Part shown: positions 27,471 to 32,595 of the stretch, in pieces | Layout of the letters: each line of letters begins with the position of its first letter | How positions within the stretch are numbered: position 1 is the first letter of the stretch | Assembly (NCBI RefSeq): GCF_014251235.1 | Contig: NZ_CP059181.1 | Location: forward strand, 1-64,000 | Origin: Blattabacterium cuenoti | GTDB taxonomy: Bacteria; Bacteroidota; Bacteroidia; Flavobacteriales; Blattabacteriaceae | Length of the DNA stretch: 64,000 nt | Direction of reading: 5' to 3' | Notes under the pieces: model-generated | The model's database searches: none | Told to the model about the DNA's origin: nothing | Seen by the model: only the letters and a program-made list of their open reading frames with translations | Position numbers and translations under genes: made by a program

Positions 27471-28103
27471 ATGAATCATCGTTTTTTAGAAAAAGAGGTA
27501 GTCGCATTGTTCCTAAATGGAACCCCACCTAAAATTTATTGCAAGAAAAAACACTATTATAAAAAAATATTTTCTGTGGATGGAGCATTTCATTATATAA
27601 AAAAAATTGGGGTAAAGGTTGATTTTTTTATTGGAGATTTTGATTCTTTTCCGAAGAAAAATCTTCCTTCTTTTGGAAATAATGTTTTAGAAAAAAAAAA
27701 TCAAAATCAGACAGATTTTGAAAAAGCTTTAAATATAATATACAAAAAAGGTTTTTTTAATATCAATGTTTGGGGTGGTAGTGGAAAAGAACAGGATCAT
27801 TTTTTAGGAAATTTGTCTACTGCATTAAAATATAAAAAGAAATTATCCATAATTTTTCATGATGACTATCATTCTTATTTTTTTTCTGATAAAAAAAATT
27901 TTTTTTATCAGAAAAAAAATAAGAAAATATCTCTTTTTCCTTTTCCCGAAGTAGAGGGAATATTTACTCGTGGTTTAAAGTATCCTATTTCTAATGGTTT
28001 ATTAAAAATAGGAGAACATATAGGAATAAGAAATGAAGCCTGTAAAAATAAAATAGAAATAAGTTATCAAAGAGGAGAATTATTAATATTTATAGAAAAA
28101 TAA
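27471..28103 (+). CDS. Thiamine pyrophosphokinase
   Basis: TPK transfers pyrophosphate from ATP to thiamine, giving the cofactor required by SucA and other oxo-acid dehydrogenases. The 210-residue protein has the family landmarks SVDGAFHYIKKIG near 36, FFIGDFDSFPK near 51, QNQTDFEKALNII near 82 and WGGSGKEQDHFLGNLS near 102, followed by the C-terminal beta-domain with ISLFPFPEVEGIFTRGLKYPI. Residues about 134-152, a variable surface strand region between domains, are encoded entirely by a perfect 54-bp palindrome (reported separately). Catalytic motifs are intact, so activity is expected. It lies 11 bases after lptB. Confidence 0.88.
   Translation: MNHRFLEKEVVALFLNGTPPKIYCKKKHYYKKIFSVDGAFHYIKKIGVKVDFFIGDFDSFPKKNLPSFGNNVLEKKNQNQTDFEKALNIIYKKGFFNINVWGGSGKEQDHFLGNLSTALKYKKKLSIIFHDDYHSYFFSDKKNFFYQKKNKKISLFPFPEVEGIFTRGLKYPISNGLLKIGEHIGIRNEACKNKIEISYQRGELLIFIEK
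27872..27925. repeat. Perfect 54-bp palindrome inside the thiamine pyrophosphokinase gene
   Basis: Two 27-base arms are exact reverse complements with no spacer, centred between 27898 and 27899. From the centre outward each arm reads A8 or T8, a five-base core (CTGAT paired with ATCAG), an outer T8/A8 block, then CTTA/TAAG and two further T-A pairs. Pairing stops at 27871/27926. The palindrome is in frame and encodes a K/N/F-rich stretch of the protein. Cruciform or hairpin formation is expected from the sequence alone. Confidence 0.97.
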
Positions 28104-28106
28104 ATT

Positions 28107-28646
28107 CTATTTTTTCAAAAAAAAGTTTATTCTGGAAAGAATTTCATCTGTATGTCTTTCTAAGACACAAAAATTATTCATTTCTTTTAACATATTCATT
28201 GAAAAATGAACATATCCATGATAAATCATATTACATACAAATGCAGTTTGTTGAATTGGTCTTAGAAATTCATCTATAGTGAAATTATTTTTTTCTCCAG
28301 CATGAAAAGATTTTTTATCTGCACCGGTTGTAATAGATACCAACAAATGTTTTCCAGATAAAGTTTTCTTTTCATATAAGTTTGTAAAAACTTTATCTTT
28401 CCATTCTTTTAGAAGTGATGGATAACTATACCAATAAAATGGAAACTGAAAAACAATAAATTTTACATTAAAAATAATTTTTACTTCCTCTTCTATATTC
28501 ACTTTAAAATCTGGATAAAGATTATATAGATTTCGTATGAAAATATTTTCATGACATTTTTTGGAAAGATTCTGCACGATTATTCTATTTAAAGTAGATT
28601 CTTCTATATTTGGATGAGCTACTAAAAACAAAACTTTATTTTCCAT
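28107..28646 (-). CDS. Flavodoxin-fold NAD(P)H oxidoreductase (KefF/MdaB/YwrO-type)
   Basis: Predicted FMN-dependent NAD(P)H:quinone reductase-like protein of the cytoplasm. The 179-residue product shows the family start VLFLVAHPNIEESTLNRIIV, the FQFPFYWYSYPSLLKEWKDKVF segment that forms the flavin/dimer region, and the SITTGADKKSFHAGEKNNFT loop. Length is normal for the family. It converges with the thiamine pyrophosphokinase gene (3 bases between stops) and lies 15 bases after mdh on the same strand. The electron acceptor cannot be inferred; KefF-type regulatory roles need a potassium channel that is not seen here. Confidence 0.82.
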   Translation of the reverse strand: MENKVLFLVAHPNIEESTLNRIIVQNLSKKCHENIFIRNLYNLYPDFKVNIEEEVKIIFNVKFIVFQFPFYWYSYPSLLKEWKDKVFTNLYEKKTLSGKHLLVSITTGADKKSFHAGEKNNFTIDEFLRPIQQTAFVCNMIYHGYVHFSMNMLKEMNNFCVLERHTDEILSRINFFLKK

Positions 28647-29691: not shown

Positions 29692-32595
29692 ATGAACGAA
29701 GATTTTATTAGAAAAAACTTCTGTCTCAGGCATATAGGTCCATCTGAAAATGATATCAATCAAATGCTAATGGTTTTAAAATGTAATTCAATGAATGATT
29801 TGATAAAAAAAATCATTCCAGAAGGAATACTTTTTAAAAAAAAATTGAATATCCCAAATTCTATCGAAGAACATAAATATATCAATCATATTTTTAAAAC
29901 TGGAAAAAAAAATAAAATTTTTCGTTCCTATATAGGATTAGGTTATAAAAACAGTATCACCCCAGCAGTCATTCAAAGAAATATTTTGGAAAATCCAAAT
30001 TGGTATACTTCTTATACTCCTTATCAATCAGAAATATCTCAAGGACGTTTGGAAGCTCTAATGAATTTTCAAACTATGATATCTGATCTTACTGGAATGA
30101 AAATTAGCAATGCCTCCATGTTAGATGAAGCATCAGCTGCAGCTGATGCTATGCTAATGGCTTATAAAAAAAATATAAAAATTAATAATAAGAAGAAACA
30201 AAAAAAACCTTGTTTTTTTGTTTCTGATGAAATATTTCCACAAACATTTTCTGTTTTGCAAACGAGATGTTATGGTATGGGAATTAATATAATAAAAGAT
30301 AGTCATAATAATTTTAAATATTATTATAAAGAAAATATATTTGGAATTTTTCTTTCATATCCTACTTCTTTAGGTGAAATTTATGATTATAGAGAATTAG
30401 TTCAAAAAGTAAAGAAAAAAAATATATCCGTTATTGTAACAACTGATATACTCTCTTTAACCTTATTAACTCCTCCTGGAGAATGGGATGCAGATATTGT
30501 TGTAGGGTCCACTCAATCTTTTGGTATACCTATGGGATATGGAGGACCTTATGCTGCTTTTTTATCTACTAACGAAAAATTTAAACGTCTACTTCCAGGA
30601 AGAATTATTGGAGAATCAATAGATAAAAAAAATAAGAAATGTTTTCGTATGGCATTGCAAACAAGAGAACAACATATAAAAAGAGAAAGAGCTACTTCTA
30701 ATATTTGCACATCTCAAGTTTTACCAGCTATAATGGCTTCCATGTACGCTTTATATCATGGTCCAATGGGTTTAAAATTTATAGCCGAAAATATTCACTA
30801 TCATACAAAAAAATTAGAACATGTATTATTGAATAACATTGGTGGTATTGATCAAATTAATATTTCTTATTTTGATACTATAAGAATAAAAAAAAAGGAA
30901 GATAATTTTTCTTTAGAAAAACTAAAAAAAATATCAAAACGTAAAAAAACTAATTTTAGATATATAGATAATAACCATTTAACAATTACTTTAGATGAAA
31001 CTTCTACTGAAAAAGATATACATCACATAGTATCTATTTTTCATGATGTAAATGGTTTAAATAGAAAAAAATTTGATAAATTTTTTCTTTTGACTAAGAT
31101 CAACGAAAAACACAGAATTCCTAATTTTATAATCAGAAAATCTAATTACTTAGAACATCCTGTTTTTCATAAGTTTCATTCAGAAAATGAATTGATGCGT
31201 TATATAAAAAGATTAGAAAAAAAGGACCTTTCTTTAACTCATTCCATGATTCCATTAGGTTCATGTACTATGAAATTAAATGCTTCTTCTGAATTGCTTT
31301 CTCTTAGCCAGCCTGAATGGAGAAATATTCATCCTTTTTCTCCAAAAGATCAAGCTAAAGGATATGATTTAGTTATTAAAAAATTAGAAGAATATTTAAA
31401 GGAAATAACTGGATTCTCAGGAATATCTTTTCAACCTAATTCAGGAGCACAAGGAGAATATGCTGGACTTATGGTAATAAAAACTTATCATCAATTTTTA
31501 AAAGAAAAAAAAAGAAATATAGCACTAATTCCTTCTTCTTCTCATGGGACAAATCCTGCATCAGCGATTATGGCAGGAATGAAAGTTGTTATAATTAAAA
31601 CTAAAGAAAATGGTTCAATTGATGAAAATGATTTGTTAAAAAAAGTGAAAGAATACAAAAGTTTTATATCTGTACTAATGATGACTTTCCCTTCTACTAA
31701 TGGTATTTACGAAGATCATAATATAAAAGATGTCATAAATATTATTCATAATAACGGAGGACAAGTCTATATGGATGGAGCAAATATGAATGCACAAGTG
31801 GGCTTAATAAAACCGGCTCATTTAGGGTTCGATATATGTCATTTAAATTTGCATAAAACCTTTGCTATTCCTCATGGAGGAGGAGGTCCAGGAATGGGGC
31901 CTATATGTGTGGCTCCTCATTTAAAACCCTTTCTTCCAATTCATCCATTATCCTATCATCAAAAAAAAGTTAAAAATAAACTAACAATATCCTCTTCCCC
32001 ATATGGATCATCTCTTATTCTAACAATCTCTTATGCTTATATTCGTATGTTAGGTCCAGATGGTTTGAAAAAATGTACAGAAGTTTCTCTATTAAATGCT
32101 AATTATATGAAAGAAAAATTAAAAAATGATTATGAAATATTATATGTAGGAAAAAACAATAAAGTAGCTCATGAACTTATTATAGACTGTAGAATGTTCA
32201 AATCTATTGGAATAGAAGTAATAGATATTGCAAAAAGAATGATGGATTATGGATATCATGCTCCTACTATATCTTTTCCAGTAGAAGGATGTATGATGAT
32301 AGAACCAACGGAAAGTGAATCAAAAGAAGAAATAGATCGTTTGATTGATGTTTTCATTAACATTCGTAATGAGATTTATGAAATAGAAAGAGGAATCTAT
32401 TCTAAAAAAGAAAACGTTTTAAAAAATGCCCCACATAGTTTAGATTTATTAACAGGTAATAATTGGGATTACCCATATACTAGAGAAAAAGCCGCATATC
32501 CATTAAAATGGGTAAAAGAAAGAAAATTTTGGCCTTCTATTAATAGAATAGAAGAAGCTTACGGAGATAGAAATTTAATTTGTGTATGTACTTAA
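29692..32595 (+). CDS. gcvP: Glycine dehydrogenase (decarboxylating), P-protein
   Basis: PLP enzyme of the glycine cleavage system that decarboxylates glycine and loads the aminomethyl group on lipoyl GcvH. The 967-residue protein is the fused alpha-beta form. The N-terminal half has LGYKNSITPAVIQRNILENPNWYT and YTPYQSEISQGRLEAL. The C-terminal half has the PLP lysine Lys722 in HLNLHKTFAIPHGGGGPGMGP. Length matches full-length P-proteins. GcvT and GcvH are not in this window but would be needed. It converges with tsaD directly (stops abut). The system would feed one-carbon units to folate, consistent with folK retention. Confidence 0.97.
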   Translation: MNEDFIRKNFCLRHIGPSENDINQMLMVLKCNSMNDLIKKIIPEGILFKKKLNIPNSIEEHKYINHIFKTGKKNKIFRSYIGLGYKNSITPAVIQRNILENPNWYTSYTPYQSEISQGRLEALMNFQTMISDLTGMKISNASMLDEASAAADAMLMAYKKNIKINNKKKQKKPCFFVSDEIFPQTFSVLQTRCYGMGINIIKDSHNNFKYYYKENIFGIFLSYPTSLGEIYDYRELVQKVKKKNISVIVTTDILSLTLLTPPGEWDADIVVGSTQSFGIPMGYGGPYAAFLSTNEKFKRLLPGRIIGESIDKKNKKCFRMALQTREQHIKRERATSNICTSQVLPAIMASMYALYHGPMGLKFIAENIHYHTKKLEHVLLNNIGGIDQINISYFDTIRIKKKEDNFSLEKLKKISKRKKTNFRYIDNNHLTITLDETSTEKDIHHIVSIFHDVNGLNRKKFDKFFLLTKINEKHRIPNFIIRKSNYLEHPVFHKFHSENELMRYIKRLEKKDLSLTHSMIPLGSCTMKLNASSELLSLSQPEWRNIHPFSPKDQAKGYDLVIKKLEEYLKEITGFSGISFQPNSGAQGEYAGLMVIKTYHQFLKEKKRNIALIPSSSHGTNPASAIMAGMKVVIIKTKENGSIDENDLLKKVKEYKSFISVLMMTFPSTNGIYEDHNIKDVINIIHNNGGQVYMDGANMNAQVGLIKPAHLGFDICHLNLHKTFAIPHGGGGPGMGPICVAPHLKPFLPIHPLSYHQKKVKNKLTISSSPYGSSLILTISYAYIRMLGPDGLKKCTEVSLLNANYMKEKLKNDYEILYVGKNNKVAHELIIDCRMFKSIGIEVIDIAKRMMDYGYHAPTISFPVEGCMMIEPTESESKEEIDRLIDVFINIRNEIYEIERGIYSKKENVLKNAPHSLDLLTGNNWDYPYTREKAAYPLKWVKERKFWPSINRIEEAYGDRNLICVCT

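Follow-up and report, generated by a model that had tools for sequence, protein, structure and literature searches.

The thiamine pyrophosphokinase (TPK) gene of the cockroach symbiont genus Blattabacterium, as found in the 64,000-nucleotide stretch of B. cuenoti DNA analyzed here (the window), contains a perfect 54-bp palindrome without a spacer. The palindrome is best explained as an old mutational product and not as a module inserted for a purpose, and we regard this explanation in its entirety, including later copying between the two arms, as probable, with some room for doubt.

The preliminary description of the palindrome, made from the sequence alone, listed two outermost bases followed by CTTA, T8, CTGAT and A8 and then the mirror image of the same elements, and this layout proved exact, with all 27 pairs complementary (100%) between arms of 27 nt each. 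Its statement that the palindrome remains in frame and covers residues 134–152 likewise held, the open reading frame of 210 aa being intact (Table 1). Deduced from the ORF coordinates, codon positions pair 1-1, 2-3 and 3-2 across the palindrome, and the third base of codon 147 is partnered by position 27886, the second base of Ser139 (TCT). The identity of the host gene was established by matches to TIGR01378 (E 1.2e-36), PF04263 and PF04265, with 3l8m, 2omk and 3lm8 as homologs in the PDB. The TPK_catalytic match spans residues 32–127 and the B1-binding match residues 148–202, which places the palindrome near the border between them. The stretch had been called variable, which is only partly right: conservation in the core clade of the genus (defined below) is 0.85 compared to 0.81 for the rest of TPK, and is thus about equal. 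A role as origin or terminus of replication was rejected, as the minimum of the cumulative GC skew lies at the contig end, 28 kb off.

Two observations were made on the neighboring genes. Convergent with the TPK gene is a gene of 179 aa (28107–28646, minus strand) that resembles NAD(P)H oxidoreductases; the two stop codons are 3 bp apart, and the neighbor is found at this place in only 12 of the 49 genus genomes. Further downstream, codon 3 (GAG, 29698–29700) of a 967-aa ORF at 29692 ends in G in 88% of core genomes. The 20-kb region has just one other two-fold Q/K/E site of this kind, and a link to translation start is possible.

Table 1 Features of the TPK palindrome and its host gene (window coordinates).
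Feature	Position	Strand	Remark
TPK gene, 210 aa	27471..28103	+	ORF and profile matches
Palindrome	27872..27925	.	Centre between 27898/27899
Left arm TTCTTATTTTTTTTCTGATAAAAAAAA	27872..27898	+	H134-N143
Right arm TTTTTTTTATCAGAAAAAAAATAAGAA	27899..27925	+	N143-K152
Codon 147 CAG (Gln)	27909..27911	+	Ile/Val/Met codon in 10/10 outgroup Blattabacterium genomes
Codon 151 AAG	27921..27923	+	Third base tracks partner 27874

Within the genome of 613,216 bp, no perfect inverted repeat with a spacer of at most 8 nt is longer than the TPK palindrome; the runner-up has 19-bp arms and is thus 8 bp per arm shorter. A census of the genome that took in arms of 13 bp or more and spacers up to 8 returned 27 perfect inverted repeats, compared to 0–5 in order-5 Markov copies. 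Chance pairing over the whole length had been deemed extremely unlikely; as chance has to be weighed with the protein given, the residues of the palindrome were recoded synonymously with the codon usage of the genome in 1000 trials. The recoded stems scored 15.6 on average and 24 at most, whereas the observed score is 27, and the stems of six genomes (G000, which is this genome, G026, G030, G062, G065 and G066) were not reached in any trial. The perfect state therefore lies beyond codon bias, but the chance argument has to be tempered because the FF..KK..FF..KK motif encoded here pairs well by itself in AT-rich codons: the amino acid sequence and the AT bias give over half of the pairing, though not its perfection.

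The distribution of the palindrome was followed in TPK sequences collected from all 49 genomes of the genus (this one and 48 others), using a FastTree phylogeny of neighboring proteins and the parts of TPK outside the palindrome. In this tree 39 genomes form a core clade, outside of which branch 10 deeper-branching genomes, here used as outgroups. At least 22 of the 27 positions pair in 33 of the 36 alignable core genomes, and the arms run unbroken for 20 bp or more in 18 genomes (of the 39 in the core clade and of the 49 overall). The ten outgroup genomes pair at 13–21 of 27 positions and have the T8 and A8 tracts, while the palindrome itself is absent. Much of the pairing has been lost in the core lineages G008, G012 and G031, and several lineages lacking the palindrome pairing still have an intact TPK. 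In the core genomes G004, G014 and G069, the A/T tracts carry small indels or the frame changes across them. In G069, TPK runs in an apparently shifted frame over ~27 residues including the palindrome before returning in frame; the DNA palindrome is kept despite the different reading frame, which is either real or a homopolymer sequencing error. The palindrome is old: the core clade inherited it, it has eroded in several lineages, and a few, among them the genome analyzed here, have it complete. Palindromes and homopolymers are difficult to sequence, but the same structure, with lineage-specific differences, is present in dozens of separate genomes, and as these are independent a sequencing or assembly artefact, about which the preliminary description had urged caution, can be set aside with near certainty. 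The same description held that the palindrome would lose its special status if relatives encoded the same protein by non-palindromic DNA; in the core clade, most genomes instead keep the palindrome, some of them with paired changes.

Alignment of the region showed no indel at the palindrome relative to either free-living Flavobacteriales or the outgroups. Insertion of a mobile palindrome was rejected on this basis, and a local inversion-duplication, one of the origins proposed initially, is not supported by the same ungapped comparison with free-living Flavobacteriales. A symbiont gene with a palindrome in frame, in a stretch that tolerates it, does recall the palindromic elements of Rickettsia, but a mobile element of that type is exceedingly improbable here: in addition to the missing gap, the palindrome is single-copy, other stretches of the window match the arm only as AT-tract look-alikes, with 1–2 mismatches, and no comparable long palindrome exists elsewhere in the genome.

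The origin can instead be read from codon 147. This codon is ATA, ATT, GTA, GTG or ATG in the ten outgroups and CAG or a derivative of it in the core clade, where glutamine is encoded in 31 of the 36 scored genomes. On the reconstructed stem branch of the core clade, ATA or GTA changed to CAG; all three bases were thereby replaced, and the new triplet is the exact complement of CTG in the left arm. Of the 3275 sites compared across 20 kb, only 3 have a comparable hydrophobic-to-polar shift, and among these codon 147 alone ends in Gln. Two marks of a quasi-palindrome template switch are thus found, the pre-existing imperfect inverted repeat in the outgroups and the clustered reverse-complement change at codon 147. 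As all three bases match the other arm exactly, we read the change as the trace left by a template switch during replication of the pre-existing T8/A8 quasi-palindrome, an account in one step that the sequences strongly indicate. Among the origins first suggested, strand switching during replication is consequently well supported by a stem-branch change templated by the other arm.

In E. coli, the nuclease SbcCD cuts palindrome hairpins. A homologue search of this genome gave no match for SbcD, SbcC, the large subunit of ExoVII, RecJ or ExoI, the last being weak evidence since, of the controls, the ExoI model detects E. coli alone. Both RecA and MutS are present. The initial argument that a long perfect palindrome should be unstable in a cell that retains recA was right about recA, but is weakened by the failure to find SbcC or SbcD and by the length, as 54 bp is well short of the 460 bp found lethal in E. 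coli (PMC4245961). Plausibly, a lack of these nucleases would let hairpins and strayed 3′ ends survive and would also favor completion of a switch.

Template switching seems to be active elsewhere in the genus too, judging from the palindromes in 783 kb of homologous sequence, where 71 with arms of at least 13 bp were found compared to 8 in Markov copies. The TPK palindrome is the only one in the sampled regions that is common to many species. Nearly all of the others occur in a single species or in a few closely related ones, and a general correcting process therefore does not normally preserve palindromes for long. One of these, a 37-bp palindrome in a coding gene of this genome (G000:529421-529457, locus L065:5421-5457; 18-bp arms, 1-nt spacer), was made by clustered changes in both arms that are seen in none of 29 compared relatives, and is likely a young template-switch product. 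Another is a perfect 44-bp palindrome with 22-bp arms in a 1264-aa ORF, present in G004 only (L130:15687-15730).

Whether the arms have evolved together, a check proposed at the outset, was assessed from changes in paired columns. Individual lineages provide examples: G026 has CTGGT/ACCAG, a matched pair change, G065 has a paired change from A-T to G-C, and G066 has two paired changes within one terminal branch. In G024, the sister of G026, the right arm repeats the CTCAT of the left arm without inverting it; this is suggestive of a direct copy, but three point changes are enough to produce it and the case was not retained. Overall, 7 pairs have changed on both sides, compared to 2.1 in shuffles and 1–4 in slid registers. 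Changes at paired columns on the same branch number 10, of which 4 are from Watson-Crick to Watson-Crick, while the slid-register control gave about 2 and 0.45, respectively. With a null weighted by branch changes, the P values are 0.014 and 0.037. Codon 151 is AAG in 12 of the 19 genomes with C at 27874 and in 1 of the 17 others (Fisher P 0.0004, not tree-corrected). The arms thus covary above the controls, although modestly after tree correction (P about 0.01–0.04), and copying from arm to arm after the origin is likely, with moderate support from these sequence comparisons.

Such correction is not relentless, as evident from the several core lineages (G008, G012, G031) that lost much of their pairing. 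Strong purifying selection on synonymous sites was unsupported when sites were matched by amino acid, conservation of two-fold synonymous sites being 0.925 in the palindrome and 0.919 at amino-acid-matched sites elsewhere (P 0.42); as synonymous conservation is not raised overall, active maintenance is plausible but unproven. CAG at codon 147 is kept in 27 of 31 genomes. This seemed striking at first, none of 68 Gln sites ranking higher, but a tree model with rate variation gives a P of about 0.10, and retention was dropped as proof of maintenance. CAG and AAG are commoner ahead of long A runs in any case, and since this context raises G-ending codons, avoidance of poly-A contributes to the retention. 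We conclude that much of the persistence of the palindrome is ordinary inheritance under protein constraint. These results also bear on the possibility of coincidence, in which conserved F/K-rich residues in AT-rich codons were passively inherited without any template switch or interaction of the arms. The recoded stems, averaging about 15 and reaching 24, the unelevated synonymous conservation and the fit of CAG retention to a neutral model all agree with it, yet the six genomes that exceed all 1000 recodings, the exact match of the three-base CAG change to the other arm and the paired changes above slid controls do not, and we consider it quite improbable.

The alternative of a selected mRNA hairpin, in which a ~24-bp stem near the TPK domain border is kept paired by selection and acts by slowing translation, by protecting or processing the mRNA, or by terminating antisense transcripts, is unlikely in our assessment but has more in its favor. 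Folding of the palindrome RNA, as had been recommended, predicted a long AU stem (−26.9 kcal/mol, z −6.65), covariation exceeds both shuffles and slides, no other palindrome of the sampled regions is common to many species, and the stem is placed between the two domain matches. Against it, broken pairs have no sense-strand G-U bias (8 G-U compared to 24 A-C), and the hairpin has been lost in several lineages with TPK intact. Even the terminal pair 3/52 covaries, where weak selection in small symbiont populations would be expected to miss it. An intrinsic terminator was rejected, as the AT stem is followed by AATATCTC, 178 bp before the gene end, and not by the T-tract after a GC stem that such a terminator requires. 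A terminator for the convergent gene was rejected for its unsuitable sequence and because that gene is mostly absent in relatives (present in only 12 of 49 genomes), and a known RNA family because the only Rfam matches were sub-threshold microRNA look-alikes.

A mutational history appears sufficient to account for the data, and a hairpin function unnecessary. The starting point was the TPK segment ..YFFS.KK..FF..KKNKK.., which in AT-rich codons forms a T8/A8 quasi-palindrome, as seen in deep-branching Blattabacterium. A template switch in the ancestor of the core clade, strongly indicated by codon 147, would then have used the left arm as template and written its CTGAT into the right one, converting an Ile/Val codon (ATA/GTA) to CAG and leaving the palindrome nearly complete. 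Inheritance through the core clade followed, with the erosion in several lineages and the completion in a few that are seen today. Later arm-to-arm copying, for which support is moderate, may occasionally have transferred changes between the arms, hence the matched double changes in some lineages and the wobble base of codon 151 following its partner. More tentatively, and with considerable doubt, the palindrome could be self-perpetuating: completed by a switch, it would be partly held across a whole symbiont clade by recurrent arm copying in a genome apparently without nucleases that trim hairpins and 3′ ends, forcing the residues S.D..Y.Q on the enzyme without selection for them.

A literature search found no report of the TPK palindrome. 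An inverted-repeat survey has a Blattabacterium among its outliers in repeat frequency, and the TPK palindrome is not described in the accessible portion of that survey (PMC10434271). The precursor can be seen in ten outgroups, and completion, paired changes and decay can be followed for this one object over 39 bacterial genomes; few bacterial cases in which a mutation process shapes a protein are documented so well. The palindrome makes testable whether a stem can stay paired, and a protein be shaped, through a mutation process alone, in a genus with the relevant nucleases apparently missing, and it serves as a warning that covariation in a coding gene does not by itself prove a functional RNA structure.

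Among the closest known counterparts are the coding palindromes in mitochondrial genes of Nematomorpha, for which repeat conversion or template switching has been proposed, with no function required (Mikhailov et al. 2019, PMC6649704). Both systems have perfect inverted repeats within functional protein genes, those of nematomorphs apparently being kept perfect. The nematomorph palindromes are many, up to 284 bp, and gained or lost between species, whereas Blattabacterium has one of 54 bp, traced over 39 genomes of one clade with visible erosion. In E. coli thyA and lacZ reporters, a quasi-palindrome is perfected using the nascent strand as template (PMC7202029); those are new mutations in laboratory strains, while the Blattabacterium product is old and fixed, and is deduced from phylogeny only. 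Homogenization of inverted-repeat arms by template switching has been described in yeast coding genes (PMC8604942) and proposed for the upkeep of RNA stems (PMC8794818), and the TPK palindrome resembles these in an apparent arm homogenization and in clusters of several changed bases, which in those systems too affect coding DNA. The yeast events are recent and short, however, and RNA genes carry a selected structure. With Rickettsia palindromic elements it shares being an in-frame palindrome within a gene of an intracellular bacterium, but those elements arrive by insertion, exist in multiple copies and have arms that become less alike over time, in contrast to a single-copy palindrome with no insertion. 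The process is thus already known, and what the TPK palindrome adds is a bacterial, clade-wide example with a readable history.
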